Positions 21,093 through 47,126 of a stretch of 64,000 bases of DNA are shown in pieces (the stretch's first letter is position 1; the number at the start of each line of letters is the position of its first letter). A program made the position numbers and the translations under genes. The notes beneath the pieces are model-generated. The model was not told the DNA's origin, did no database searches, and saw nothing but the letters and a program-made list of their open reading frames with translations. The DNA lies in contig JANQMU010000140.1 in the NCBI GenBank assembly GCA_028279875.1, positions 1-64,000 of the forward strand, written 5' to 3'. The stretch is from Rhizobiaceae bacterium (GTDB lineage Bacteria > Pseudomonadota > Alphaproteobacteria > Rhizobiales > Rhizobiaceae).

Positions 21093-21521
21093 TTATTCAT
21101 CGTCCATCTTCAGCAATCCGGTATCGCGATAGGCCTCCGCTGCCTCGCGGACATAGGCTCCGGTATGCTCGGCACCGTACATGCTGATGATTTGCTGGCT
21201 CAGCGACAGAAGCTGGTAATAGGTCGATCGCCCCGGGCGCAGGGCCTCATAGATCTCCAGAATCTGGTCGTTCGGCATGCGGGCCATCTCAGCCGCGCGT
21301 GCGAGGTTTTCAGCCACTTCGTGATAACCCGCCTGCCGTGCAAATTCCGCCTGCATCTCCAGCGTCTTGTCGCTGATCGAAACGTCGTCGGGACTGAGAT
21401 CGCCACCAAGGACACGCTGCAGGTCCAGTTCCGAGAGCGGCCGGCCGGATTTGGTGGCAATCTCGTCGCTGTGATGCTGCCCGAGCGGAAACCGGAAAGC
21501 GCGTTCTTTTTCGTCGCTCAT
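21093..21521 (-). CDS. pduE: Diol/glycerol dehydratase small subunit (PduE/DhaB3-like)
   Basis: 142 residues, a little shorter than enteric PduE. It matches that family along its length: RFPLGQHHSDEIATKSGRPL, then ILEIYEALRPGRSTYYQLL and the final VREAAEAY. It is the gamma subunit of an adenosylcobalamin-dependent diol or glycerol dehydratase. Its ATG overlaps the stop of the fused large-medium subunit gene (ATGA, 21518-21521), ensuring coupled synthesis. Confidence 0.88.
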   Translation of the reverse strand: MSDEKERAFRFPLGQHHSDEIATKSGRPLSELDLQRVLGGDLSPDDVSISDKTLEMQAEFARQAGYHEVAENLARAAEMARMPNDQILEIYEALRPGRSTYYQLLSLSQQIISMYGAEHTGAYVREAAEAYRDTGLLKMDDE

Positions 21522-23755
21522 GGGAAGGTGACCTTCAGTTCCTCGATCCCGCGATTTTCATCGATCTGGCGAACCTCGCGATGGTGCAGAAGGGTCGTGT
21601 GCACGATAAGCCGCAACCGCGCCATATTATCGACTTTCATCGGGACAGGGCTCGGCGCCCGACCGACCGCGTAGCAGGCGGCATTCCGACCCAGCGCCCG
21701 GTAACTCTCGAGCGTCAGGTTCGGCGCCATGCTCAAAAGCTCAAGATTGTTTAAGGGGGCCAGACCCTTCTTGTGGATCAGCGCGGTTCCCTTCGACTGA
21801 AGACCGATCCCGATCCCCGAGCCGCTGAGTCGGGCGCCCGACAAGCCGATATCCGCAACGTCTGCTCCATGCCAGACCTTGACCACCCGCCATGGCACGC
21901 CCTCGCCCTCAATCCCGTCCAGGATTGCACGCAGCACATCGGCGTGGGAGAGATCGGCCAGCGTCTGGTTCATCACCGAACCAAAGGCCGGACCGAGCGC
22001 AACGACGACTTCCGGGCTTGTTCCCTCGGCGGCCTGCCCGACCGGATCGAGCGACAGGTTCGGATCCGGCGCCTCGCCTTCGACGAGCGCAAGCGGGTCG
22101 AGCGCCTGCGGCAATGCACGGATCGCATCCCAGGTCTCGCCTTCGACCCGATATCCGGTTCCCGGGCCCTCGTAATCATTCGGCGTGTTGACCGCACTCA
22201 GCACGTTGAAATCCTTGTCGAAAACGGCCGATGTGTGCAGATAGTCGCCGAGCACCCGCTGGCGCTGCATTTCCAGCACACTTTCGGCAACGTCTTCGAA
22301 ACCGCTGCGTGCCAGGGCTGCGACGACATCAAGCGCCGTCTTGTCGCTTTCCAGGAATGCATCGGCGGCTGCCAGATCTTCAACGGAATTGCGGTCGGGC
22401 ATGTCGTCGGATGAAAACGCCGTGATGGCAGCCGCGACTTCCTCATTCGTGATCTCGGGAAATCCCATGTCGCGAAAGACCGCCTGAATGGCTTTCGCTC
22501 CCTTTTCACGAACCCGCAGGACATCGGCTTCGCGCACGGGTTTCAATCCGCCATTGACCTGCATGTCGCGCTGGATCACCAGCCAGTCATCCATGTCCTC
22601 GGCATCGAAATTGCCGCCGCCGAACAGATTGTCCTTGCGCGGCATCACCGAGTGACCGGAGGTCACGAAATCCGTCCCGGGCAGCAATTGCAGCATCAGC
22701 TTGGCCGTCTTGCGCATCTGGCTGTGCGATGACATCGCATCATTGCCGGCAGCGACTTCCAGGCCAAGCGCCGCGGCCACCAGATTTTCCGCCAATACGC
22801 CGCGAACCCCGTTCGGCAGCGATTCGGGCAGGGCAATGCAGGAGATCGAACCGTTTTGCACCCCCTGGCTGCCGGCCCCCTTGACCATCAGGATACAGCG
22901 GATTTCCAGATAGAGCATCGACCAGCCAAGCCCGTAGCCCATCAGCGCCTCTGAACCGGAACCGGAGGTGAAACGCGACTTGATGCCGCGTGAGGCATAG
23001 GCCGATGCGAGGATACCCTTCGACCACGGCGTGTCATCACCATCGAGAAAACTGGGGATCGTGCCGTATACGGACAGCGTCTCGGCATAGGTGGCCAGCC
23101 CCTTCATGGCCAGCCGCAGGTTCAGTGCCTCCTCGCAACTGATCTGGGTCATCACGCCCGGCCGTCCGACCTGGGAACCGACCAGCAGGGACAGCGCTGA
23201 AAACGGCGCCATCCGCGCCACCCGCACCGTGGTCTCCTCCTCCGCGAAACCGCGCAACCCTGCTTCAGCCGCATCCGCCGCGAGCAGGGCCGGATTTTCC
23301 TTCCAGTTGGTCACATGCGCCTGATCGGCCGGCATCTTGCGCTGCCGCATCTTCTGCATCGCCATCATCATCTCGACCACGTTCAGATGGCTCATCACTT
23401 CGGCGATCATCGCCGGTGTCAGGCCGGAGAACACGTCCATGACCCGCCGCTGGGGGACGTTGATGTCGACAAGCATCCGGGCGATTTCCAGCGACCCCAT
23501 GGCCATCGCTTCTTCAGCCTGCTCGAGATTGATGGCGTGCTTGGCGATGAAGCGGTCTATGGCATCGAATTCACTCTCGCGCCGCTCATCCATCTCGACC
23601 ACTTTGCCGGCGCTTATCCTGAGCGAGGGCTTGGGGTCCGTCGGACTGTCCATCACGATCAGGCCGAGATCGGGAAGTTCGGAAACGAAGACTTCCTTGT
23701 TGATGTCGCGCTCGCGCAGTTTTTCGAAACGCTTCGATCCGCTCGTAACTGTCAT
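21518..23755 (-). CDS. pduCD: Fused large-medium subunit of B12-dependent diol/glycerol dehydratase
   Basis: 745 residues from ATG 23755 (AGGA 8 bases upstream; a GTG lies at 23758). Residues 1-555 match the PduC/DhaB1 barrel that holds adenosylcobalamin and diol: FTSGSGSEALMGYG, KGAGSQGVQNGSISCIALP, LPGTDFVTSGHS, NFDAEDMDDW and DYEGPGTGYR. A linker of about 27 residues follows. Residues 582-745 match the PduD/DhaB2 medium subunit: EVVVALGPAFG, ARLSGSGIGIGLQSKGT, GLAPLNNLELL. Enteric enzymes encode these as two proteins. The reaction is 1,2-diol (1,2-propanediol or glycerol) to aldehyde and water by a radical mechanism. Substrate preference is not readable by eye. No reactivase genes accompany it. 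Confidence 0.9.
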   Translation of the reverse strand: MTVTSGSKRFEKLRERDINKEVFVSELPDLGLIVMDSPTDPKPSLRISAGKVVEMDERRESEFDAIDRFIAKHAINLEQAEEAMAMGSLEIARMLVDINVPQRRVMDVFSGLTPAMIAEVMSHLNVVEMMMAMQKMRQRKMPADQAHVTNWKENPALLAADAAEAGLRGFAEEETTVRVARMAPFSALSLLVGSQVGRPGVMTQISCEEALNLRLAMKGLATYAETLSVYGTIPSFLDGDDTPWSKGILASAYASRGIKSRFTSGSGSEALMGYGLGWSMLYLEIRCILMVKGAGSQGVQNGSISCIALPESLPNGVRGVLAENLVAAALGLEVAAGNDAMSSHSQMRKTAKLMLQLLPGTDFVTSGHSVMPRKDNLFGGGNFDAEDMDDWLVIQRDMQVNGGLKPVREADVLRVREKGAKAIQAVFRDMGFPEITNEEVAAAITAFSSDDMPDRNSVEDLAAADAFLESDKTALDVVAALARSGFEDVAESVLEMQRQRVLGDYLHTSAVFDKDFNVLSAVNTPNDYEGPGTGYRVEGETWDAIRALPQALDPLALVEGEAPDPNLSLDPVGQAAEGTSPEVVVALGPAFGSVMNQTLADLSHADVLRAILDGIEGEGVPWRVVKVWHGADVADIGLSGARLSGSGIGIGLQSKGTALIHKKGLAPLNNLELLSMAPNLTLESYRALGRNAACYAVGRAPSPVPMKVDNMARLRLIVHTTLLHHREVRQIDENRGIEELKVTFP

Positions 23756-23780
23756 CACAGTGTTCCTATCGTTTCAAATG

Positions 23781-35546: not shown

Positions 35547-36884
35547 TCATTTTGCGATCGGACAGGCCCCGCCGCAAATCTTCTCAACCTCCTGCGCCAG
35601 CTTTTCGGCGGCGGTTCGCGCATCCGTCTGTCCGGCCGCGGCGGCCTGAAGCGGAATATGCATCGTGTTGTAGATCTTCGCCCCAAACGGTGTGGAGAAC
35701 AGGTTTGACGAGAAGCCCGCCATGCTGTCGAACACTTTGTTCAAGGTGGCATACTGACCGTTCGTCGCCCGCCTGTCGGCGGTGGCGAATTGCGGATCGG
35801 TCAGTACGCTGGTCAGCGTCGAGGCGCCGCCCATCTGGGCAAAGGGCACCTGGGCTCCACGCCCGCCGATATGGGCGACGAACTTCATCGCCATTTCCGG
35901 GTTGGCCGAACTTGACGACACACCCAGCAGGAACCCGCCAATATAGGCTTTCTTCAGGGGAGCCTCGATCGCCGCCATCCTGGCGCCCGGAACCAGCTTC
36001 TCGGTCTGCACCGCATTCGGCCACTGATCGAGGAAGAAGCCATGCGTCATGGCGATCTGGCCATCCTTCATCTGGTTCATCACGCCGTCATAGGTCACGG
36101 TGAGCGCCGCGGGCGGTGCGAATTTCAGCAGTTCCAGATAATCGGAAAGCACCTTCTCCACGTCATCGACCGGCACCTTGCCTTCATCGGTCAGCCAGTC
36201 CGAGCCCATGCCCCAGAGCGGCGCGGACAATTCGTCCTGAATCTCGGGAAAGCGCCCGGCCATCAGTCCGACGCCGTAGAAATCCTTCTCCAGCGTTTCG
36301 CCTTTCAGCGTCTCGCCCGCCTTGCGGGTGAAGAATTCGGCGATATCGCGATGCTGTTCCCATGTCGTGGGCTGCGCGAGGTCGTAGCCATATCGGGCTT
36401 TGAAGGCCTCCTGCTCGCCGGCATCGTCCAGCAGGTCCTGACGGACAAACATCCCGGCCGAATAGGTATAATAGGGCAGGCCCCAGACATCGTCCTTGTA
36501 CTCGACCGTCATGGCCCTCAATGTCGGCGACACATCATTCAAAAGCTCCTGTTTGTCGGCAAAGAAATCCGACATCGGGAGGATGAAGCCGTTTTCGGCG
36601 AATTCCGCTTTCTCAGCGGTCTCCAGCGTCACAACGTCATAGGCTCCGGTCTGGCCGACCATCTCGATGACCTGTTTGTTGTAGAGCTGGGAGTTGTCGA
36701 TGTTGACGATATTGACCTTGGCGCATTCCTCCGCCTCGAAACTCTCCGCGAACTGAGCCATCGCGTCGGTGTAGAAACCCGCAATGGTAGACCAGGTTAT
36801 CTCGACCCGCTCGTCGTCTTCGCAGGCCTGCGCAGCTCCGGTCACGAGCGCAATGGCTGCGGTTGCCATCAGAAATCTCTTCAT
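35547..36884 (-). CDS. ABC transporter solute-binding protein (family 1, GlpV-like position)
   Basis: 445 residues; ATG with GGGAGGAAGG upstream. Signal peptide MKRFLMATAAIALVTGAAQA. The mature protein has the extracellular sugar/polyol-binding pattern (VWGLPYYTYSAGMFVRQDLL, MSDFF). First gene of the long minus-strand operon, with a palindrome (36927-36939) about 45 bases upstream. Gene order binding protein, two permeases, small membrane protein, two ATPases resembles glycerol Glp-type ABC operons; the substrate could be glycerol, 1,2-propanediol or another polyol. Confidence 0.87.
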   Translation of the reverse strand: MKRFLMATAAIALVTGAAQACEDDERVEITWSTIAGFYTDAMAQFAESFEAEECAKVNIVNIDNSQLYNKQVIEMVGQTGAYDVVTLETAEKAEFAENGFILPMSDFFADKQELLNDVSPTLRAMTVEYKDDVWGLPYYTYSAGMFVRQDLLDDAGEQEAFKARYGYDLAQPTTWEQHRDIAEFFTRKAGETLKGETLEKDFYGVGLMAGRFPEIQDELSAPLWGMGSDWLTDEGKVPVDDVEKVLSDYLELLKFAPPAALTVTYDGVMNQMKDGQIAMTHGFFLDQWPNAVQTEKLVPGARMAAIEAPLKKAYIGGFLLGVSSSSANPEMAMKFVAHIGGRGAQVPFAQMGGASTLTSVLTDPQFATADRRATNGQYATLNKVFDSMAGFSSNLFSTPFGAKIYNTMHIPLQAAAAGQTDARTAAEKLAQEVEKICGGACPIAK

Positions 36885-37163
36885 TCCTTCCTCCCTGAAT
36901 GTCTGACTTGATTAATCTGAACTGTAACATGTGACATGTCAGTTTGCAAGATACGAATTGGCGCAAGCCGGTCAGTCGGCTTCGAGCACGTGAAACATGA
37001 GGTCAGCTAATGAATTACTTAATTAAGATAATTTGACTTTATGATTAGGCAATTGCGAATGTCAGCAGGCCAGACACGCAAGCCAACGGTCAAACATCCG
37101 TAACGTCTCCAGCGCCCTGTGTTGATCCCCAATCCGGGCGCGATCCGACTGAAGGAAGCTCCT
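36885..37163. other. Divergent control region between the transporter operon and the dehalogenase genes
   Basis: About 280 bases, noticeably AT-rich between 37000 and 37060 (AATTACTTAATTAAG). It should hold promoters in both directions. Apart from the palindrome at 36927-36939, no ORF, RNA gene or riboswitch consensus was recognised. Confidence 0.5.
36927..36939. promoter_or_regulatory. Palindromic candidate operator ACATGT-G-ACATGT
   Basis: Two copies of the self-complementary hexamer ACATGT separated by one G, flanked by CTG and CAG in near symmetry (36922-36942). It lies about 45 bases before the binding-protein ATG, where a repressor would block the promoter. The FadR-type regulator encoded in the same operon is the first candidate. 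Confidence 0.45.
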
Positions 37164-38201
37164 GTGACAATCCAAAGCGCCAACCAGGAACAGATTGCCG
37201 AGATGACCAGAGCGGCAATCGATGTCATTCGTCCGCCCGGCCGGGCCACGTTGATTTCGGCGGACCATCCTTTGCCGGAGATTGCCCGATCCGCGACCGC
37301 CGATGCACCGGAACTGGAACTGTTTCATTTCGGATTTTCGATCTGCTCGCAGAAAGTGCGCACGGTCTTGAGTGAATTGAACGTTGGATTTGGCTCCAAT
37401 CAATTTGCCGGTCCGATCGAATATGAAAACTACACGCCTGCCTATGTGCGCCTTCGGCTTCAATCGGATGTCGCCAAAAGCGCGAAACTGGTTTCGAGCT
37501 ATTCCGGAGGATCGGCCGTCGAAAGCGAAGGCTTCGATCCGCTTGTCGTGCCGACGCTTGTCGACAATCGCCACGGGCGGGTCATCGCAGACTCCAAACT
37601 TATATGCCTTTATCTGGCGCGCAACTTCCGGGAGCACATTGATCTGCTGCCCCGCGACATCGAGCCGGCAATCATTGAGCAGATCGATCGCGTCGACCGA
37701 ACGCCACATGTCGCGATGCTCTATGGCGCCAACCCGGATTGCGATACGCGCCCGCCCGAACTGCAGGCGAGAATGCCGGGCATTCATCAGAAGAAATTCA
37801 GGGTCATCGAGGCCTATATCGATCAGGTTCGGGACGAGCCGGATCTTGTCGCCGCCTACCGGGCAAAGCTGGAAAAGGAAAAGGCGGCCGAGACATTTGT
37901 GGTCGACGATGCGGCCATGCGATCGGCCACGGCACAGGCCGAAACCCTCATTCGCGGACTTGAAGACAAACTCGCCGAAACATCCGGCCCCTGGATTTTC
38001 GGTGAACGGTTTACCCTGGCCGATGTCGTGTGGGGGGTCAGCCTGATCCGGCTCGATTACCTCGGCAACGCCGAATTCTGGGGCAACGCAGCCGGAAGAC
38101 CACGCGTGAAATCCTATTTCGAGCGGGCTCTCAATCGCCCGAGCCTGGTGACGGGGGTTCTCGAATGGCCGGGCTCCGGCAGGCGTCTGCCGACGACCTA
38201 G
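37164..38201 (+). CDS. LinD-like glutathione S-transferase reductive dehalogenase
   Basis: 345 residues from GTG 37164, preferred to GTG 37119 because AAGGAAG lies 6-7 bases upstream. The thioredoxin-fold half has the active segment ELFHFGFSICSQKVRTVLSE with Ser/Cys at the glutathione site, then DPLVVPTLVD and VIADSKLIC. A long insert precedes the helical half, which ends with GPWIFGERFTLADVVWGVSL. Length and these segments match what I recall of LinD, the glutathione-dependent 2,5-dichlorohydroquinone dechlorinase, far better than ordinary GSTs of about 210 residues. Cytoplasmic. Upstream of the reductive dehalogenase gene by 72 bases on the same strand, so probably one transcript. Substrate is inferred, likely a halogenated hydroquinone. 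Confidence 0.75.
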   Translation: MTIQSANQEQIAEMTRAAIDVIRPPGRATLISADHPLPEIARSATADAPELELFHFGFSICSQKVRTVLSELNVGFGSNQFAGPIEYENYTPAYVRLRLQSDVAKSAKLVSSYSGGSAVESEGFDPLVVPTLVDNRHGRVIADSKLICLYLARNFREHIDLLPRDIEPAIIEQIDRVDRTPHVAMLYGANPDCDTRPPELQARMPGIHQKKFRVIEAYIDQVRDEPDLVAAYRAKLEKEKAAETFVVDDAAMRSATAQAETLIRGLEDKLAETSGPWIFGERFTLADVVWGVSLIRLDYLGNAEFWGNAAGRPRVKSYFERALNRPSLVTGVLEWPGSGRRLPTT

Positions 38202-38273
38202 CCTGTATCCGGCAGACATCGCGCGCCGCAGCGCAACATCTTCACACGAAATCAGCGGATACGGGATAAAGGC

Positions 38274-41200
38274 ATGGCAGCTCAGGTGTTCTCGCAAAGA
38301 AGCCGGTTGCCGCATCTCGGGCCGCATCGCCTGGAGACACTGAAACGTCAGCCCTCGGTCGACCTTGAGTGCGTGCCCGGCTTCATCCCCTATTCGTTTT
38401 CGCGCCCCGATACGCCGCAATCGATTGTCAATGCGATGCGCGATCACCAGGCCGTCCTGGACGCCATTCGGGTCGGATTGGTGAATCCCGTCATTGCCGA
38501 GGTCCCCGATGATCTGAACGAGCGATCCAATCACCTCAAATCCTTCGGCTATTTCTCCGATGCGTCGATGGTCGGGATATGCGCGATTCCCCCGATTGCC
38601 CGGTTGGAGGAGCCCTATATCAATCCGGGAATAGCGGATATCGCCCGGGATCTGCAGACGCGGCAGATGAAATCCGTGGCGCCCGGCTTTGACCTCATCA
38701 TGGCGGATCTGAAGGATTCCATTTCGGCGCCACCATCGTCGATCGACAGCCACACGCACGCCATCGTCTATCTCTACGAGACACCGCGCGACCCCCAGCC
38801 TGACGAGGCCGGGGCCGACTGGATCCTTGAGGCGACGCAGCACCGATCCGCCCTGATTGCAACGGAGACTGCGGCCGTTCTTGCCAATTACCTCCGCCTG
38901 CTCGGGTTTGACGCTCGCGGACACTCCGTCACCTCCTCCGAGGTCGACCTCAACAAACTCGCCGTCGCGGCCGGCCTTGCCTATGTGAAGGATGGCGAGG
39001 TGATCGCACCCTTCATCGGCAACGGCTTTGCACTGTCGGTTGTGACGACGTCGCTGGAACTCGCCGTCGACATGCCCCTTGCATCCGGCCAGCCGGCGCA
39101 CCGCAGTCGCCTGAAATATGCCGACCGTCTTTTCAAAGAAGGTGCCCATCCGTTCGAGAGGATCAAGCGCGTCGACGAACCGACGACCTATATCGACGAA
39201 GAGCGGGTTCCGCGCGTTCCCAAGCGCTCGGACATGTTCGTTCGCGCCCAGTTCGGTGACCTGGGCAAGAAGGCGCAGGACGTGTCGATCGGCGGCTACC
39301 ACACGCTGAAATCGCCGCTGGTGAGTGCGCAGAGGCGGGCGCTGGGTGCGTTGCTGATATTGCAGGACGGCCCGTCCGCCGCAACGCGGGAGGCGCTGGA
39401 CCCGCAACGGGCGCATGATCTGGTGAAAGCGGCGACCTACTTCATGAGCGTCGATGCCGTCGGCATTTCCCGCTGCCCGGAATGGGCCTGGTACAGCCAT
39501 GATGCCGTCGGCGAGGCGATCACGCCGACGCATGATCAGGCCATCTCGATGATCATCGACCAGGGCTTTGAGACCATGGACGGTTCGTCCGGCGACGACT
39601 GGGTGTCGGCGGCCCTGTCGATGCGCGCCTATCTGCGGTTTTCAACGCTTGGCGGCGTCATCGCCCGGCAGCTCAGAAACCTGGGCTACAGGGCCAAGGC
39701 CCATACGACCATGGATGGGGGCGTGCTCCACCCGCCGCTGCTGCTGCTCAGCGGGCTTGGCGAAGTCAGCCGCATCGGCGAGGTCATCCTCAATCCCTAT
39801 CTGGGGCCGCGGCTGAAATCCGGCGTCGTGACGACCGACCTCGTCATGTCCCATGACAAGCCGATCGATTTCGGCCTGCAGGCCTTTTGCGAGAGCTGCA
39901 AGAAATGCGCGCGCGAATGCCCGTCCGGGGCCATCACGGCCGGACCCAAGCTGATGTTCAACGGCTATGAAATCTGGAAATCGGACAGCCAGAAATGCGC
40001 GACATATCGCATGACCAATCAAGGCGGTGCCATGTGCGGGCGCTGCATGAAAACCTGTCCCTGGAACCTTGAAGGCATCCTGGCGGATGCGGCCTTCCGC
40101 TGGACGGCGATCAACATTCCCGGCACGGCGCCGGCTCTGGCAAGGCTCGATGACCTTTTGAACCGGGGCGACCTGAATCCGGCAAAGCAATGGTGGTGGG
40201 ATCTGTCACTGTCCGGCGACGGCGGTTACAAAATGACGACGGCGCCGGTCCATCGTCGAGGATTGCAGAAGACGCTGGATCTCAAATACGAAGACCAGAC
40301 CTTGGCGACCTATCCGGCAAATCTTGCACCGCAGCCCTATGCCTACCCGTTCCCGATCGATCGGGAAGAGGGCATCAAGGCCTTCAAGGAGATGATCACC
40401 CCGGAAGAATACAAGAAACGGCTGAAGGACGGCAAAACGCAGGGCTTGGTCAAGCCGTTCGAAAAGGATGAAAACAGCCCGGTCCTCTCGCTTGTCGTCA
40501 CCAGGGTCGAGGAAACGGCCCGCTTGGTGCGCAAATACACGCTCGAGGATCAACACGGCGCCGATCTCCCGGAATGGACGGCCGGGGCGCATCTGGACGT
40601 CGTCGTCACGCCTGAGTTCTTTCGCCAGTACTCGATCTGCAGCGACCCGGCCGATCGAAGCCGCTACGAAATAGGCGTGCTGCTGGAGCAGGACGGCCGC
40701 GGCGGCTCGCGCATGCTCCACCGCATTTTCAATGAAAACAGGCGGGTTTTTGCCTCGCGCCCGCAAAACCACTTCCCCTTGTGCGAGACCGCATCAAAAA
40801 CATTTCTGATGGGGGGCGGGATAGGGGTGACGCCGATGATTGCCATGGCGCACCGCCTGCACGCCCTGGGAAGCGATTTCGAACTGCATTATTCCGGGCG
40901 TTCAAGGGAAGCGATGGGCTTTCTCGATGAGCTTCAAAAGACCGCATGGGCCGACCGGGTGCATCTCCATGTATCGGAGGAAGGCACGCGGGCCGATCTC
41001 GCCCGGATACTCGACTACCGGGAAGGCGCGCATGTCTACACCTGCGGCGCCGAACCCTATATGAAGGCGGTTCTGGGCACTGCCGAACACAACGGCTTTC
41101 CGGAAGACAGCCGTCATTTTGAATATTTCAGCGTTCCTGAAACGCCGGAATATGAGAACAATGAATTCAGCGTGGTTCTTTCCCGGTCCGAGCGCCAACT

Positions 41201-41426
41201 GAACGTGCCCGCGGACAGATCGCTTGCCGACATTCTCATCGAAAACGGGGTGGGCGTCGATCTGAAATGCTCCGACGGAATATGCGGTGTCTGCAAATGC
41301 CGGCTGAAATCCGGCCGGGTCGAGCACCGGGATTTCGTGCTGTCCAACAAGCAGCGGGAGACCGAGATCATCACCTGTCAGTCACGCGCCGCCGAGCCGG
41401 GTGGAACCCTGGTTCTGGACCTGTGA
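38274..41426 (+). CDS. rdhA: Self-sufficient cobamide-dependent reductive dehalogenase (RdhA fused to flavin reductase and 2Fe-2S ferredoxin)
   Basis: 1050 residues, three modules. Residues 1-680 are a catabolic-type RdhA: a degenerate N-terminal half, then the cobamide half with SISRCPEWAWYSH-like segment (candidate catalytic Tyr), then two 4Fe-4S motifs, C539-C542-C545-C549-P and C588-C591-C595-P with C575 nearby. Residues about 705-960 are a phthalate-dioxygenase-reductase-like unit: R784-Q-Y-S787 flavin motif, GGGIGVTP at 847-854 for NAD(P), YTCGAEPYM. Residues 965-1050 are a plant-type ferredoxin with C999, C1004, C1007 and C1035. There is no Tat signal or RdhB anchor, so it is cytoplasmic. 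It should remove halogen from aryl halides using NAD(P)H, as the Comamonas BhbA type does; substrate unknown. Confidence 0.9.
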   Translation: MAAQVFSQRSRLPHLGPHRLETLKRQPSVDLECVPGFIPYSFSRPDTPQSIVNAMRDHQAVLDAIRVGLVNPVIAEVPDDLNERSNHLKSFGYFSDASMVGICAIPPIARLEEPYINPGIADIARDLQTRQMKSVAPGFDLIMADLKDSISAPPSSIDSHTHAIVYLYETPRDPQPDEAGADWILEATQHRSALIATETAAVLANYLRLLGFDARGHSVTSSEVDLNKLAVAAGLAYVKDGEVIAPFIGNGFALSVVTTSLELAVDMPLASGQPAHRSRLKYADRLFKEGAHPFERIKRVDEPTTYIDEERVPRVPKRSDMFVRAQFGDLGKKAQDVSIGGYHTLKSPLVSAQRRALGALLILQDGPSAATREALDPQRAHDLVKAATYFMSVDAVGISRCPEWAWYSHDAVGEAITPTHDQAISMIIDQGFETMDGSSGDDWVSAALSMRAYLRFSTLGGVIARQLRNLGYRAKAHTTMDGGVLHPPLLLLSGLGEVSRIGEVILNPYLGPRLKSGVVTTDLVMSHDKPIDFGLQAFCESCKKCARECPSGAITAGPKLMFNGYEIWKSDSQKCATYRMTNQGGAMCGRCMKTCPWNLEGILADAAFRWTAINIPGTAPALARLDDLLNRGDLNPAKQWWWDLSLSGDGGYKMTTAPVHRRGLQKTLDLKYEDQTLATYPANLAPQPYAYPFPIDREEGIKAFKEMITPEEYKKRLKDGKTQGLVKPFEKDENSPVLSLVVTRVEETARLVRKYTLEDQHGADLPEWTAGAHLDVVVTPEFFRQYSICSDPADRSRYEIGVLLEQDGRGGSRMLHRIFNENRRVFASRPQNHFPLCETASKTFLMGGGIGVTPMIAMAHRLHALGSDFELHYSGRSREAMGFLDELQKTAWADRVHLHVSEEGTRADLARILDYREGAHVYTCGAEPYMKAVLGTAEHNGFPEDSRHFEYFSVPETPEYENNEFSVVLSRSERQLNVPADRSLADILIENGVGVDLKCSDGICGVCKCRLKSGRVEHRDFVLSNKQRETEIITCQSRAAEPGGTLVLDL

Positions 41427-42344
41427 GCGACGCGTTTCGGCCTGCCCTTCGCCAAAGCTGCTTCGCAGCATGGCCGCAAAATCCATAATGAGATTCGGCA
41501 TCGCATATTCGGTTCTGTAAACGAATCCCATCGGCCAGCGCGTCCCCTCCAGCGGGAAGTCCAGCGTGCGGATGCCCGACCCGGCAATCCCGAAGCGCAA
41601 CAGTGTCTTCGGCAGCAAGGTCACATATTGGTCGGAGAGCAGGAAGCTCACAATGCTGCTGACCGACCAGAGCTCGATCTGCGTTCGCATCCCGGTAAAA
41701 CCGTTGACCGCCAGGACCGAACGCGTATGCGTGCTCATCGCTGTTCCCGCATGGTGATCGATCCAGTTCGCGGCCTCCAGATCGGCGCGTTCTATCTTGG
41801 CCTTTTTTGTGAGCGGGTGGTTTTTCCCGGCCATGATACACAGATGATCATCATAGAGGTGATGCGTGTTCAGCCCCTCCGGCGTTTCCACCATGCCGAT
41901 CGCCCCGACGGCAACGTCGACATCCCCTTTTTCAATGGCTGTGATCAGACCGGGTAGACTGCTCTCGTGCAGCCGGACGCTCAGCTTGGGGCGTTCCGTC
42001 AGAAACGCGCTCAGGACCAGTGGCACAATCGAGGCCGTCAGGGGCGTGACACCGATGGCCAGCCGTCCGGATCGTCCTGCCTTCCAATCCAGAACATCCT
42101 CACGCGCTCGATCGATCATCCGGTCGATAATGCGCCCGTAGCGAACGATCCGGCCGCCGATCTCCGTGACTTCCGCCCCATGGCGGTTTCGGTTCACCAG
42201 TTTTTCGTCGACCGTGGTTTCAAGTTGTTTCAACCCCTGCGACAGTGCCGACTGGGTCAGATTCAACGAATCCGCCGCCTTGGTCAGGGATCCCCTGTCG
42301 GCAATTTTGACGAGAAGGGACAGGAGGCGCGGGGTGATATGCAT
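41382..42344 (-). CDS. LysR-family transcriptional regulator
   Basis: 320 residues. N-terminal helix-turn-helix about 1-60 (LLSLLVKIADRGSLTKAADS, LNLTQSALSQGLKQLE), then a LysR effector domain (LAIGVTPLTASIVPLVLSAF). Its 3' end overlaps the end of rdhA by 45 bases in convergent orientation. Its 5' end is divergent from tctB, with an AT-rich inverted repeat between, so it most likely regulates the tct operon. A role in dehalogenase control is possible but less supported. Confidence 0.88.
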   Translation of the reverse strand: MHITPRLLSLLVKIADRGSLTKAADSLNLTQSALSQGLKQLETTVDEKLVNRNRHGAEVTEIGGRIVRYGRIIDRMIDRAREDVLDWKAGRSGRLAIGVTPLTASIVPLVLSAFLTERPKLSVRLHESSLPGLITAIEKGDVDVAVGAIGMVETPEGLNTHHLYDDHLCIMAGKNHPLTKKAKIERADLEAANWIDHHAGTAMSTHTRSVLAVNGFTGMRTQIELWSVSSIVSFLLSDQYVTLLPKTLLRFGIAGSGIRTLDFPLEGTRWPMGFVYRTEYAMPNLIMDFAAMLRSSFGEGQAETRRSQVQNQGSTRLGGA

Positions 42345-42360
42345 TAAGAGACCTAATGGT

Positions 42361-42379
42361 AGTTAAACTTTATATAACT
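42361..42379. promoter_or_regulatory. Candidate LysR binding site in the lysR-tctB divergent region
   Basis: AGTTA (42361-42365) and TAACT (42375-42379) form an inverted repeat with a 9-base spacer, in an AT-rich stretch of the 81-base gap. Wider symmetry TAGT...ACTA spans 42360-42385. This fits the loose T-N11-A LysR pattern and the usual divergent layout. Confidence 0.4.
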
Positions 42380-42425
42380 TGACTAAACCTACCCAATTGT
42401 CGACGTCTGTCAAAAGGGAGGCTTT

Positions 42426-42914
42426 ATGCAGCGAAACAAAATATCCTTTTCCGACGTCGCGTTGGCCGGAACGATGCTGTTGTTGGCAGCGCTTCTTTTC
42501 ATCGGCGGATGGTCATTGCCTGCATCACGGTTCGAGCCGATGGGCCCGTCCGGAATGCCCCTGACCGTCGCGACGGCGCTGGCCGTCCTGTCGGTCATCT
42601 TGCTGATCTCGGCCATTTTCAGGCACGAGCCGGATGAAGCGGCCGAGCCTTCGGACGAGGTGGGGATCGATCCGATGCACCGCCTTCGCGTCGGTCTGCG
42701 CATCGCCGTTTTCTTTGCCTATCTGATCGCCCTGGCGACACATCTCCTGTCATTCATGGTCGCGACCGTTGCCTTCCTGGTCATCTACGGGCTGATCGAG
42801 GGCGATTTTTCGCGACGCGCGTTGCTGACCCTCGTGACGCTGGCGTTTGCCATCGGGGTCGGCGTGACCCTCATCCTGGAAAAACTGCTTGCCGTGACCT
42901 TGCCAGGCGCGTGA
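42426..42914 (+). CDS. tctB: Tripartite tricarboxylate transporter small permease TctB
   Basis: 162 residues; ATG with AAGGGAGG upstream. Four hydrophobic helices, with the TctB pattern of SRFEPMGPSGMP after helix 1 and a polar loop before RLRVGLRIAVFFAYLIALA. It pairs with TctA in Na+-coupled carboxylate uptake. Confidence 0.85.
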   Translation: MQRNKISFSDVALAGTMLLLAALLFIGGWSLPASRFEPMGPSGMPLTVATALAVLSVILLISAIFRHEPDEAAEPSDEVGIDPMHRLRVGLRIAVFFAYLIALATHLLSFMVATVAFLVIYGLIEGDFSRRALLTLVTLAFAIGVGVTLILEKLLAVTLPGA

Positions 42915-42958
42915 CGGGCCATGGTCCATGTCGCAATCACACCAGATAGGGTAGCTTA

Positions 42959-44458
42959 GTGGATCAGCTCTTTGCCGCATTTTCCGCCCTGACGGGCCCG
43001 GTGCCGTTGTTTTTCATCGCGCTCGGGACGATTCTCGGGATTGTCATCGGTGCAATTCCGGGTTTGGGGCCGGCAATGCTCATCGCATTGCTGCTACCGC
43101 TGACATTCTACATGGAAAGCGTTCACGCGCTGATCCTGCTGGTGTCGATCTATGTCGGTGCCATCAGCGGCGGACTGATCTCGGCTGCCCTGCTGAAAAT
43201 GCCGGGAACCCCTGCCGCGATCATGACAACGCTGGACGCCTATCCGCTTGCAATGAAAGGTCAGGCCAGCCGGGCGCTTTCCCTCGGGGTTGTGGCGTCC
43301 TTTGCGGGCGGCATGATCTCCTGGATCTTCCTCGCGGCTATGTCTCCACCCCTGGCTGAGCTTGCCCTTCATTTCGGACCCTACGAGTTCCTCGCCCTGG
43401 TCATCATGGCGCTGGTGCTGATTTCCGCCGTATCAGGCGGGGCAATGCTCAAGGGCCTTCTTGGCGGGCTCTTTGGCGTCTCGATCGCAATGGTCGGTCC
43501 GGATGCGGCATCCGGCATCATCCGTCTGAACTTCGGCATCGACGAACTGAACGCCGGTTTCCGGCTTCTTCCGACACTGCTCGGACTGTTTGTCGTCAGT
43601 CAGCTGATCGAGATGCTGATAAAAGATCAAATGCCCGTGCAGCAGGCGAGAGCAAGTGCGTGGGATATTCTTCGCAACACGGGTGACATGCTCAAGCACT
43701 GGCGGAACTGCCTGCGGTCTTCGCTGATAGGCACATGGATCGGCGTTCTGCCCGGGGTCGGCAGCGCCGTGGCGTCGATTGTCGCCTATTCGGTGACGCG
43801 CAATGTTTCCAAAAACAAGCAGGAGTTCGGGACCGGGGCCGAGGAGGGTATTGTCGCGTCGGAATCGGCGAACAATGCCGCCGTCAATGGCGCGCTCGTG
43901 CCTCTGATCGCGCTGGGAATACCCGGCAGCGTCGTCGACGCGATCCTCATCGGGGCCCTCATCGTCCATGACCTGCAACCGGGGCCGGGCCTGTTCCGTG
44001 AGCAGCCGCAAATCGCCTACGGCATCATCGCCGCCGCCCTGATCGCCAATGTGATCATGTTCGCATTCATGATCACCTGTTCCGGCTACATCGCGAAAGT
44101 GGCGCGCATTCCCAAACATCTCCTGTTGCCGGCAATCCTGGTTTTCTGCGTCATCGGCGTCTACACAACGACCAATCGCTTCTTCGACATCTGGATCATG
44201 CTGGGCTTCGGGCTCATCGGCTACATCCTGCGCCGAAGCGGCGTGCCCATCGGAACCGTTGTTCTCGGCTTCATCCTGGCGCCGATTGCCGAAAGCCAGT
44301 TGCGCAACGGCCTGATGCTCTACAACGGCGCCATCCTTCCCCTGTTTACCCGGCCGATTGCGCTGACCTTCGTCATTGCCTCCATCGCAATGCTGGCATG
44401 GCCGTTGCTTGGCAGGCTGATCCAGGGCCCCTCAAGGCGGTCCCGGACGGTGGAATGA
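42959..44458 (+). CDS. tctA: Tripartite tricarboxylate transporter large permease TctA
   Basis: 499 residues from GTG 42959. Twelve or so membrane helices with TctA hallmarks: GIVIGAIPGLGPAMLIALLL, YVGAISGGLISAALLKMPGT and the second half GVLPGVGSAVASIVAYS, then ALGIPGSVVDAILIGAL. The membrane pump of the TTT system, between TctB and TctC. Confidence 0.92.
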   Translation: MDQLFAAFSALTGPVPLFFIALGTILGIVIGAIPGLGPAMLIALLLPLTFYMESVHALILLVSIYVGAISGGLISAALLKMPGTPAAIMTTLDAYPLAMKGQASRALSLGVVASFAGGMISWIFLAAMSPPLAELALHFGPYEFLALVIMALVLISAVSGGAMLKGLLGGLFGVSIAMVGPDAASGIIRLNFGIDELNAGFRLLPTLLGLFVVSQLIEMLIKDQMPVQQARASAWDILRNTGDMLKHWRNCLRSSLIGTWIGVLPGVGSAVASIVAYSVTRNVSKNKQEFGTGAEEGIVASESANNAAVNGALVPLIALGIPGSVVDAILIGALIVHDLQPGPGLFREQPQIAYGIIAAALIANVIMFAFMITCSGYIAKVARIPKHLLLPAILVFCVIGVYTTTNRFFDIWIMLGFGLIGYILRRSGVPIGTVVLGFILAPIAESQLRNGLMLYNGAILPLFTRPIALTFVIASIAMLAWPLLGRLIQGPSRRSRTVE

Positions 44459-44501
44459 ATTGAGGCGAAACCACAACAAAAAGCGAGAAAGGGAGTTGAA
44501 C

Positions 44502-45467
44502 ATGAACACAACGAAATGGATGAAGCGGACTCTGCCGCCACTCGCCGCCTGCACATTGGCACTGGCGGTCACGTCTCACGCGGTGGCGCAGGAGAGCTAT
44601 CCGAGCCAACCCATACAACTGGTCGTTCCGTGGAAACCGGGCGGCCCGGGCGACACCTATGGCCGCATGATCGCCAATGCGATCAACGACAACAAATTGC
44701 TGCCGCAGCCGGTGGCCGTCATCAACGTGCCCGGAGGCGGGACGACGATCGGTTCCCGTGACGTCCGCGATGCGGATGCGGATGGATATCGCGTGCTGTT
44801 TCAGCACCAGACGCTGATCACGTCGGAACTGATGGGCACCGCCGACTACGGCATCGAAGCCTTCGAGCCCATTGCGGAAACCAATAATTTCTGCCTGGTC
44901 TATGGAACCGCGGCCGATTCCGGCATCGAGAGCATGGCGGGGCTGAAGGAACAGGCCGACGCCAATCCCGGTTCGATCAAGGATGCGACCCTTCTCGGCA
45001 GCCTGTCCCATTTCAGCTCTGAAATGCTGAATTCGGCCGCCGGGATCGATATGGGCTATGTCAATATCGGCGGCGGCAGTGCCCGAACGACCTCCCTGCT
45101 GGGCGGACATACGCAAGTCGCCATCATGCCGCCAAGCGCCGTGACCCGCTCGGACGGGCGTCTGCGCGCCCTGGTCTTCATGGGAGCGGAACGCCATCCC
45201 GATCTTCCCGATGTGCCGACCGCGGTCGAGTTGGGCTATGACGTCGTGTCGTGTCTCAACTATATGTGGTTCGCGCCGAAGGGAACGCCGAAGGAACGGG
45301 TGGATGTCCTGACGGACGCCCTTCGCAAGGCCATGGAACTGCCGGAACTGCGGGAGGCGATGATCAAGCGCGGCGTCGTTCCCGAATTCCACACCGGTGA
45401 GGCCCTGCTCACCAGAATCTCGGACAGCCAGAAGGCTCTCAAGGCAATCGCCGCGAACCTTCAGTAA
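44502..45467 (+). CDS. tctC: Tripartite tricarboxylate transporter binding protein TctC
   Basis: 321 residues from ATG 44502, with GGGAG upstream; an in-frame start at 44460 has none. Signal peptide with hydrophobic core PPLAACTLALAVTSHAVAQ. Mature N-terminus YPSQPIQLVVPWKPGGPGD is the TctC/Bug signature. Binds a carboxylate in the periplasm; ligand unknown. A hairpin follows at 45484-45501. Confidence 0.9.
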   Translation: MNTTKWMKRTLPPLAACTLALAVTSHAVAQESYPSQPIQLVVPWKPGGPGDTYGRMIANAINDNKLLPQPVAVINVPGGGTTIGSRDVRDADADGYRVLFQHQTLITSELMGTADYGIEAFEPIAETNNFCLVYGTAADSGIESMAGLKEQADANPGSIKDATLLGSLSHFSSEMLNSAAGIDMGYVNIGGGSARTTSLLGGHTQVAIMPPSAVTRSDGRLRALVFMGAERHPDLPDVPTAVELGYDVVSCLNYMWFAPKGTPKERVDVLTDALRKAMELPELREAMIKRGVVPEFHTGEALLTRISDSQKALKAIAANLQ

Positions 45468-45483
45468 ACGCGTTGATTGGTCT

Positions 45484-45501
45484 GCGCCGGGCTCCCGGCG
45501 C
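45484..45501 (+). promoter_or_regulatory. GC-rich hairpin between tctC and the sulfatase gene
   Basis: GCGCCGGG (45484-45491) and CCCGGCGC (45494-45501), perfect arms with a 2-base (practically 4-base) loop, 17 bases after the tctC stop. No T-run. Third case in this window of a hairpin directly behind a binding-protein gene. Confidence 0.5.
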
Positions 45502-45536
45502 GGGTCATCCCGATACCAACAACAAAGAATGATGCG

Positions 45537-47126
45537 ATGACCAGTCGACCGAATGTGATTTTGCTGATGACCGACCAGCATCGGGCCGATCATCTGGGAT
45601 GTTACGGAAATCCCGTCGTCAAGACCCCCAATATTGACCGCATTGCCGCAAGAGGATGCTGCTTCGACAAGAGCTTTGTGGCGAACCCCATCTGCATGCC
45701 CAACCGGGCCTCGATCCTGACCGGACGCATGCCCTCTGTCCACGGCCTGCGATCCAATGGCGTTTCGCTCTCGCTCAAGGCTAGGACCTTTGTCGAGGAA
45801 CTGGCAAACGCCGACTACGATACGGCCTTGATGGGCAAGTTGCATGTCCAGAACATGACCGGCATGGATCGCGAGTTCACGCCGCCGGGCGCGCAGGAAC
45901 TAGTTGATGAACAGGGCAATATCCGCGAGGCCGTCCGGCACGATCTGGCCGGTCCGGACTATCAATCCGAAAACTCGATCCTGTGGCGAACCAATCCCGA
46001 CCACAGGGCCCGAACGCCCTATTACGGATTTGACCACGTCAACCTCACGACATTTCACGGCGACAATGTCCAGGCGGAATATCTCAGATGGCTGGACGAA
46101 AGCTGTGACAACCCGGATGCCCTGCGCGGGCCGAAGAACGCCCTGCCCGACGATTCGATCAGTCTTCCGCAGGCCTGGCGAACGGCCATTCCCGAAGAGC
46201 TCTACCCGAGCTCTTTCGTGGCCAACAAGACGGTCGAATATCTGGAAAACAGGGTGGCCGAAGGAACGGACAAACCGTTCTTCATTCAATGCTCCTTCCC
46301 GGACCCGCATCACCCTTTTACGCCGCCCGGCAAATACTGGGACATGTACGATCCCGATGACATGGAATTGCCCGACGCTTTCGGGCTGGGCGATACGCCG
46401 ATGCTTCGCCACATGCGAAAAGAACGGGAAAACGGGACGGCGATCCGGCACGGCCAAGTCCCCTTTTCGATCAGCGAACGCGAGGCCAGGGAAGCCATCG
46501 CATTGACCTATGGGATGATCACCATGGTCGATGATTGCATCGGACAGGTGCTGGACTGTCTGGCGCGGCTCGGCCTTGAGGACGACACGATCGTCATCTT
46601 CATGTCGGACCACGGCGATCTCATGGGCGATTATGGCGTCCTGCTCAAAGGCCCGATCCACAACCAGGGAACGGTGCGCGTGCCGTTCATCTGGGCCGAC
46701 CCGTCAGGACCGTCCGGCGTGCGGTCCGACGCTCTGATGTCGTCCATCGATCTGTCGGCAACCCTTTTCGACCGTCTCGGGATCACCCCCTATTACGGTG
46801 CCCAGGGACGATCCATGCTGCCTGCCATGGTGGACAAAAGGCAAGGCCGCGAAGCGATCCTGATTGAGGATGATCGAGAGCGCGTCTACCTGAACTTCGA
46901 TCGCCCGCAGCGATTGCGCACCGTGATCACCGACCGCCACCGGATGACCGTTTGTCTGCCGCTCGGCTTTCATGAACTGTATGACCTGCAGGAGGACCCC
47001 TGCGAGGCAAACAATCTGTGGAACGACGACGCGCCGACTCCGCTCATGTACGAGATGCAAAAGACACTGATGGAACAACTGATGATCCACCAGGACTGGA
47101 CACCGGCGCTGACCAGTCGCGCCTGA
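45537..47126 (+). CDS. Type I sulfatase/phosphonate monoester hydrolase family (formylglycine-dependent)
   Basis: 529 residues from ATG 45537. Cys53 in the motif NPICMPNRASILTGR is the C-x-P-x-R site oxidised to formylglycine by a maturase encoded elsewhere. Metal ligands show in LLMTDQHRADHLG and FMSDHGDLMGD. No signal peptide, so probably cytoplasmic, like phosphonate monoester hydrolases and choline sulfatases. Linked to the TTT importer, it may hydrolyse an imported sulfate or phosphonate ester. The presence of Gln after the first Asp resembles the PMH/arylsulfatase branch. Confidence 0.87.
   Translation: MTSRPNVILLMTDQHRADHLGCYGNPVVKTPNIDRIAARGCCFDKSFVANPICMPNRASILTGRMPSVHGLRSNGVSLSLKARTFVEELANADYDTALMGKLHVQNMTGMDREFTPPGAQELVDEQGNIREAVRHDLAGPDYQSENSILWRTNPDHRARTPYYGFDHVNLTTFHGDNVQAEYLRWLDESCDNPDALRGPKNALPDDSISLPQAWRTAIPEELYPSSFVANKTVEYLENRVAEGTDKPFFIQCSFPDPHHPFTPPGKYWDMYDPDDMELPDAFGLGDTPMLRHMRKERENGTAIRHGQVPFSISEREAREAIALTYGMITMVDDCIGQVLDCLARLGLEDDTIVIFMSDHGDLMGDYGVLLKGPIHNQGTVRVPFIWADPSGPSGVRSDALMSSIDLSATLFDRLGITPYYGAQGRSMLPAMVDKRQGREAILIEDDRERVYLNFDRPQRLRTVITDRHRMTVCLPLGFHELYDLQEDPCEANNLWNDDAPTPLMYEMQKTLMEQLMIHQDWTPALTSRA

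Follow-up and report, generated by a model that had tools for sequence, protein, structure and literature searches.

A Conserved Seven-Gene Module Joining a LinD-like Gene and a Self-Sufficient Reductive Dehalogenase Gene in a Rhizobiaceae Bacterium Suggests a Route for Sulfated Halo-Aromatics

In a 64,000-nucleotide stretch of a Rhizobiaceae bacterium (GenBank assembly GCA_028279875.1, contig JANQMU010000140.1, positions 1 to 64,000 of the forward strand; the window), a gene for a LinD-like glutathione S-transferase (GST) is followed by a gene for a cobamide reductive dehalogenase (RdhA) of the self-sufficient type. Both belong to a module of seven genes spanning 37164-47126 (linD-like, rdhA, lysR, tctB, tctA, tctC and a sulfatase gene), all of which recur in the same order and orientation in Roseobacter sp. 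HKCCD6576-2. We consider it highly probable that the seven genes serve one co-regulated pathway for a halogenated aromatic compound. With a slight preference over all other readings taken together, we regard the segment as a catabolic module under LysR control that would serve a halogenated and sulfated aromatic acid built on a hydroquinone ring, the likeliest candidate being a sulfate of brominated homogentisate (2,5-dihydroxyphenylacetate) or a closely related compound. What can be taken directly from the DNA are the protein families, the gene order conserved in two genomes, a box shared by the promoter regions, and a second hmgA-maiA-fahA set standing immediately behind the module in the Roseobacter.

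The Gene Pair and the Conserved Module

The original prediction had described two mechanistically different reductive dehalogenases encoded in tandem, and its account of the DNA holds: both frames are intact and lie on the plus strand, the GST-fold gene at 37164-38201 and the RdhA gene at 38274-41426, with a spacer of 72 bases (38202-38273). Both motif sets were likewise borne out, by GST domains and grouping with LinD for the first protein and by TIGR02486 and the catalytic residues of NpRdhA for the second. The features in question are the following.

37029-37041, plus strand: Box 1, TAATTTGACTTTA, T-N11-A type, 122 bases upstream of the linD-like start
37164-38201, plus strand: linD-like gene, putative glutathione-dependent dehalogenase of 345 residues, S-x-C motif at S59/C61
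38274-41426, plus strand: rdhA, predicted self-sufficient catabolic RdhA of 1050 residues, with TIGR02486, NpRdhA residues and a 2Fe-2S reductase tail
41382-42344, minus strand: lysR, LysR-type regulator, convergent with rdhA (45-base overlap) and divergent from tctB
42375-42387, plus strand: Box 2, TAACTTGACTAAA, in the 81-base lysR-tctB intergenic region
42426-42914, plus strand: tctB, small membrane subunit of a tripartite tricarboxylate transporter (PF07331)
42959-44458, plus strand: tctA, large membrane subunit (PF01970)
44502-45467, plus strand: tctC, periplasmic solute-binding subunit (PF03401); the frame opens with TTG at 44460, with ATG at 44502
45537-47126, plus strand: sulfatase with the C-x-P-x-R signature as CMPNR at 45693-45707; the frame opens with TTG at 45477, with ATG at 45537

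As the pair recurs in Roseobacter sp. HKCCD6576-2 together with the five further genes, its juxtaposition appears to be more than chance. The gap between linD-like and rdhA amounts to 38 bases there, and the encoded proteins of the two genomes share 49-50 % identity for TctB, 61-62 % for LysR, 65-67 % for the LinD-like protein, 70-73 % for TctC, 74.5 % for RdhA, 75-77 % for the sulfatase and 82-84 % for TctA. Comparison of non-synonymous (dN, 0.12-0.48) with synonymous substitutions (dS, 1.1-1.6 and thus near saturation) across the seven genes speaks for an old module under purifying selection, and third codon positions match at only 43-50 %. The earlier proposal of one aerobic pathway removing several halogens from an aromatic ring gains support from this conserved module, from dN being far below dS and from the shared box described below.

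Regarding the genes beyond the pair, the best NCBIfam model of the regulator is PcaQ with 136.9 bits, below the cut-off of 303.8, and TctC is 28 % identical to the product of a TctC-type gene beside bhbA on pBHB. The sulfatase matches PF00884 with 145.6 bits, has no evident signal peptide and keeps CMPNR in the window and in the Roseobacter copy; we take C-x-P-x-R to be the type I sulfatase signature. The next best sulfatase after the Roseobacter copy was 51 % identical among 394 genomes of the family. The flanks of the module differ between both genomes, those in the window comprising an ABC transporter operon with an SBP_bac_1 binding protein, whose ATPase and permease genes were named from their sequence, plus an oligopeptide-type ABC gene. 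Elsewhere in the window, one minus-strand frame (21521-23758) fuses the large and medium subunits of a coenzyme-B12-type diol/glycerol dehydratase (PF02286, PF02288) near genes for alcohol, aldehyde and flavin mononucleotide-dependent dehydrogenases. Judging from its gene relatives, the nearest of which are marine roseobacters, the window's organism is probably marine as well.

A Promoter Box Shared by Both Arms

LysR regulons follow the rule that a T-N11-A box stands before each controlled transcription unit. A 13-base box of this form, TAANTTGACTWWA, is common to the promoter regions of both modules, with two exact matches in the window's 6.9-Mb genome and two in the 4.4-Mb Roseobacter genome. 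All four sites are found either upstream of linD-like or in the lysR-tctB intergenic region, and relative to the structural genes they all point the same way; the reversed pattern, used as a control, matched twice in the window's genome and not at all in the Roseobacter. Since the pattern had been built from its own sites, the Roseobacter 13-mer alone was used as a fairer test: allowing up to two mismatches, it matched twice in the 64-kb window, both times at the module sites, with 0.13 matches expected and one of 100 shuffles reaching two matches. The 11 related regions that were checked (sulfatase, homogentisate and RdhA) contained no exact copy of the box.

With TAANTTGACTWWA in front of the dehalogenase arm and of the transporter-sulfatase arm in each genome, the two arms appear to make up a single LysR regulon, and the predicted sites constitute strong sequence evidence of joint control, presumably by the LysR of the module. 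The original prediction had counted separate transcripts with unrelated induction as evidence against itself, and the sequence points the other way. Reading the TTGACT core of the box as a plain sigma-70 -35 hexamer was thought unlikely, no -10 hexamer being seen at the usual spacing. A promoter scan of 36800-38400, which covered the linD-like side, returned none on the plus strand.

The Two Predicted Dehalogenases

LinD-type enzymes act on hydroquinone rings and need glutathione. The linD-like frame of the window starts with GTG behind an AAGGAAG, with an alternative upstream GTG at 37119 being possible, and its product scores above the cut-offs of the Pfam domains GST_N_3, GST_N_2 and GST_C_2. 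It shares 49.1 % identity at 97 % query coverage with the products of annotated linD genes (eight of the 25 matched plasmid records). In a midpoint-rooted tree of 17 rows, which includes one very long outlying row (Nostoc), a partial row from Cupriavidus campinensis and several rows that are long open frames, the protein forms one group with its Roseobacter counterpart and LinD at a support of 98/97; the remaining rows, 28-45 % identical to it, fall outside. The S-x-C motif, which we presume to mark the glutathione site by its label in PcpC and zeta-class GSTs, reads FSICSQKVR in the window and FSVCSQKVR in LinD. Since most of the less related rows also keep it, the motif is not specific to LinD. 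The possibility of an ordinary zeta or FzlA-type GST was dismissed, as such models score far below cut-off and the tree places the protein with LinD; the best solved relative is GDAP1.

The RdhA matches TIGR02486 with 175.4 bits (cut-off 160.35), and its best solved relative is NpRdhA (E 6e-154). Iron-sulfur domains are represented by Fer4_16 (a double cluster), Fer4_7 and Fer2, and the tail resembles phthalate dioxygenase reductase (2pia, E 2.3e-57), with reductase models matching as well. Tyr453, Lys515 and Arg579 align with Y426, K488 and R552 of NpRdhA, named as its catalytic residues in the excerpted literature (PMC10463259), and are identical in the Roseobacter copy. The N terminus, MAAQVFSQRSRLPHLG, bears no twin-arginine signal on direct reading of the sequence, and rdhA is flanked by linD-like and lysR with no gene for an RdhB membrane anchor adjoining. 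Together the two module RdhAs form a separate group (100/100) on a long stem of the RdhA tree, in which a partial Yoonia row with one internal stop was kept; this row was dropped from the following signature count. One segment has 34 residues in the module RdhAs and 51-53 in all 16 other fused RdhAs, a 17-residue deletion common only to the window and Roseobacter copies among the 18 rows compared, and position 448, five residues before the catalytic Tyr, is Leu in the module RdhAs and Gln in each of the 16 others. Deletion, Leu448 and long stem suggest a changed substrate. A second self-sufficient RdhA is encoded in the window's genome (contig C125:123790-127017); it is 54 % identical and groups with those of four other members of the genus.

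Occurrence of the Combination

A pattern-based scan of GTDB genome contigs with the GST returned a single locus, the one in Roseobacter sp. HKCCD6576-2. Among the first 61 genomes, 12 had a full-length or long fused RdhA match (>1000 bits), and a GST gene more than 45 % identical was present only in the window's genome. The LinD-clade surveys used a threshold of E <= 1e-30 on overlapping, thin samples, those of 394, 385 and 398 genomes considering at most the five best candidates per genome among the matches listed. Within these limits, matches came from six of the 394 family genomes; apart from the window's own gene, the top one reached 45 % identity and lay outside the LinD group. The 385 class and 398 phylum genomes, whose samples hit no linD-bearing Sphingobium, each gave only the window's own. 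A set of 61 genomes around Roseobacter sp. HKCCD6576-2 yielded two matches, that Roseobacter (66 %) and a 45 % relative. A LinD-clade gene is suggested to be rare in these samples, and other carriers may well exist.

Approached from the other enzyme, no LinD-like match (E <= 1) was found near other RdhAs in the 23 stretches fetched, which represent 18 distinct genes; for 12 of these genes at least one flank extends to about 3 kb or more, and about half of the stretches show only 1.5 kb on each side. Of the annotated RdhA records, a TRAP transporter stands close by in two and protocatechuate-type genes in two (pBHB and Nitratireductor OM-1). On a plasmid of Jannaschia sp. M317, a 208-residue GST (L035:14745-15371) is encoded about 1.5 kb past rdhA, with a lysR gene in between; MaiA is its closest model (71.6 bits, below the cut-off of 171), it shows hardly any similarity to the window's GST, and it may represent a second, unrelated GST-RdhA neighbourhood.

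More distant LinD-like genes were seen in other settings. The window's genome contains a second one, 38 % identical (contig C72, about 56.8-57.7 kb), with a LigB-like extradiol dioxygenase match about 8.5 kb off, and plasmid p2 of Cupriavidus pinatubonensis HN-2 has a 40 %-identical one after genes whose annotations read iron-containing alcohol dehydrogenase, amidase and tryptophan 2,3-dioxygenase family protein. For Cupriavidus JMP134, the excerpted account (PMC2842291) mentions a GST-type reductive dehalogenase and names no RdhA.

The Proposed Pathway and Its Alternatives

Homogentisate is itself a hydroquinone, the ring class on which LinD acts. None of the seven genes encodes a ring hydroxylase in either genome, so the imported ring may already be a hydroquinone. 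Most simply, the module would import a halogenated acid similar to homogentisate in the form of its sulfate ester. In the Roseobacter, hmgA, maiA and fahA follow behind the sulfatase on the same strand, with hmgA starting 65 bases after it, and all three products score above their NCBIfam cut-offs. The module-side HmgA is the second of that genome; the other copy, on contig C1, is 82 % identical, and the HmgA of a third genome (G305) is nearer at 85 %. In G305 the gene for a related sulfatase (about 50 %) stands directly before hmgA, a presumed maiA frame and fahA, and is flanked at its other end by a TRAP-type transporter and a LysR-like match; a scan of HmgA and FahA confirmed both. In a genome of the window's own genus (G005), genes for a related sulfatase (about 50 %), a TRAP transporter and a flavin hydroxylase share a stretch of about 8 kb with maiA and hmgA. 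The sulfatases of G305 and G005 fall into the clade next to the module pair.

Two side observations concern these latter clusters. The G305 maiA frame between hmgA and fahA (L098:7075-7695) has an in-frame stop in this assembly, and the set of a LysR-like gene, an NMT1-type binding protein, a fused TRAP permease and the sulfatase beside hmgA in G005 and G305 (L097, L098) is a candidate operon for non-halogenated homogentisate sulfate.

Natural products of a related kind have been described: 4,6-dibromohomogentisamide is listed among Aplysina sponge metabolites in an excerpted source (PMC3229238), and lanosol-4,7-disulfate is counted among a red alga's major metabolites in another (PMC9322897). 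As the JtRdhA report states in its excerpted parts (PMC10463259), this fused RdhA uses 3-bromo-4-hydroxyphenylacetate well and also accepts 3,5-dibromo-4-hydroxybenzoate; it removes bromine or iodine from phenols at positions ortho to a free hydroxyl, and the chlorinated analogues tested only inhibited it.

From gene families and neighbourhoods we infer the substrate with its sulfation and bromination, the order of the RdhA and LinD-like steps and all activities in the following route. TctABC would import the organic acid and a cytoplasmic sulfatase would free the phenol, thereby supplying the free hydroxyl for RdhA. RdhA would then remove a halogen ortho to this hydroxyl, with electrons passing from NADPH via the fused reductase and the iron-sulfur clusters to cob(I)alamin, and the LinD-like enzyme would remove the remaining halogen from the hydroquinone with glutathione. 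HmgA would finally open homogentisate, to be processed by MaiA and FahA. Because every open position of homogentisate is ortho to a hydroxyl, the two dehalogenases may divide positions, halogens (bromine versus chlorine) or redox conditions between them. Of the substrate guessed in the original prediction, the halogenated aromatic ring stands; simple bromophenols fit less well than a sulfated halogenated hydroquinone acid, since the module holds a Tct-type importer and a sulfatase without evident signal peptide and the homogentisate set follows in the Roseobacter. With its sulfatase, the module hints that such bacteria actually use sulfated halo-aromatics as a carbon source. Taken by itself, a homogentisate-type substrate is for us an evenly balanced question, and more tentative still is the full proposal. 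According to it, bacteria of the roseobacter type would have an entire aerobic route, not described before, for living on sulfated polyhalogenated homogentisates such as sponges or algae might make; a single LysR regulon would unite the Tct importer, the cytoplasmic sulfatase, a cobalamin dehalogenase altered at residues close to the active site and the LinD-type glutathione dehalogenase, with homogentisate passing to HmgA.

Several points weigh against our main reading of the module. The full module was seen in two genomes only, and the homogentisate set adjoins it in one of them: in the window's genome hmgA, fahA and maiA are found on another contig (C80), and the only HmgA match lies there in a region without a box copy. 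The sulfatase stays below the cut-off of all four NCBIfam models listed, its neighbouring clade joins the module pair with a support of 93/93 rather than full support, and of seven related sulfatase regions outside both modules two are in homogentisate clusters and five are not. Tct-sulfatase neighbourhoods on two plasmids have no RdhA or LinD-like match, and the sulfatase could serve something else. Box 2 ends only 38 bases before the tctB start, which is close for a classical LysR activator site. Our literature search found no paper on homogentisate sulfates. AlphaFold models built from two-row alignments had to be discarded as too poor, with a mean predicted local distance difference test score of 36.8 for the LinD-like protein and 28.9 for RdhA.

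The alternative that survives best, though we think it unlikely, keeps the co-regulated dual-dehalogenase pathway and changes the ring: a brominated 4-hydroxybenzoate, 4-hydroxyphenylacetate or bromotyrosine derivative would be the substrate, with a hydroxylase encoded elsewhere and the LinD-like enzyme acting on a later hydroquinone. The JtRdhA substrates just mentioned are of this kind, and rdhA stands beside protocatechuate-type genes in pBHB and Nitratireductor OM-1, yet the module includes no hydroxylase in either genome. While the module has no gene for a linE-type hydroquinone dioxygenase, a context feature that membership in the LinD family does not need, the window's genome has a LinE-like gene (34 % identical) and a PF04444 dioxygenase elsewhere. 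The genome of Roseobacter sp. HKCCD6576-2 gave no LinE-like or PF04444 match and has hmgA-maiA-fahA right behind the module, and a LinE-type or intradiol ring-cleavage exit was downgraded, neither being matched there.

Less probable again is that RdhA alone removes halogen and that the GST is a glutathione-dependent isomerase, lyase or quinone detoxifier. GST functions drift easily, the best solved relative GDAP1 is no dehalogenase, and bacterial relatives of about 40 % identity occur in other contexts such as that beside the tryptophan-2,3-dioxygenase-like gene of Cupriavidus; the quite different MaiA-like small GST on the Jannaschia plasmid illustrates that a GST near rdhA need not be LinD. 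The window's protein nevertheless groups with LinD (98/97) and keeps S-x-C, and the Roseobacter cluster already has a separate maiA for the isomerase step. That the two arms are separate systems merely co-travelling on a mobile segment is very improbable: the differing flanks suggest transfer and Tct-sulfatase pairs occur without these dehalogenases, but each of the two genomes has exact copies of the box only in front of the two arms, and order and orientation are kept despite the low match at third codon positions.

Comparison with Known Systems

Several known systems come near to the co-regulated pathway with two reductive dehalogenases that we propose. LinD of Sphingobium indicum UT26S, the 2,5-dichlorohydroquinone reductive dechlorinase encoded on pCHQ1, resembles the window's protein in sequence (49 % identity over 97 % of the query), tree group and S-x-C motif. 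The contexts differ: in UT26S linD is accompanied by linE and a gene for a PDR/VanB-type oxidoreductase, in the window by rdhA, transporter and sulfatase genes. The oxidoreductase gene right after linD on pCHQ1 (L037:7152-8117) encodes a protein that shares about 35 % identity with the reductase tail present in fused RdhAs.

With BhbA of Comamonas sp. 7D-2, to which it is 48 % identical, and with JtRdhA of Jhaorihella thermophila, compared here by its excerpted published description (PMC10463259), the window's RdhA has the reductase fusion and the catalytic Tyr/Lys/Arg in common. The module RdhAs differ from self-sufficient catabolic RdhAs such as BhbA in their own group, in having 17 residues fewer and in Leu448. 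Ros_A3X954 from marine Roseobacter MED193, a cobamide reductive debrominase from the same bacterial group, can be set beside the window's RdhA by description: its excerpted account (PMC13101508) describes no gene neighbourhood, and the main text lacks the terms glutathione and sulfatase. The sulfatase-TRAP-hmgA clusters of G305 and G005 are like the module in having a related sulfatase (about 50 %) beside homogentisate genes and differ in a TRAP-type instead of a Tct transporter; neither an RdhA nor a LinD-like match turned up in their regions of 20 kb.

Cobalamin RdhAs and the glutathione-dependent LinD and PcpC are usually separate answers to the same chemical problem. A published pairing of both types was not found in the literature searched, in agreement with the original prediction, and here they are apparently bound into one regulon, which makes the module a testable case of why a cell needs two reductive dehalogenases for one ring. 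If our reading is true, it would link marine halogenated and sulfated natural products to central metabolism and indicate a natural setting for LinD-type enzymes, which are best known from man-made chlorinated pesticides; should the homogentisate route be true, LinD, known from lindane breakdown, would gain a relative with a natural-product role. The enzyme families are known, and what appears new compared with the systems above is that they stand together with an importer and a sulfatase in a conserved and apparently jointly regulated set, which in one genome has a homogentisate branch behind it.

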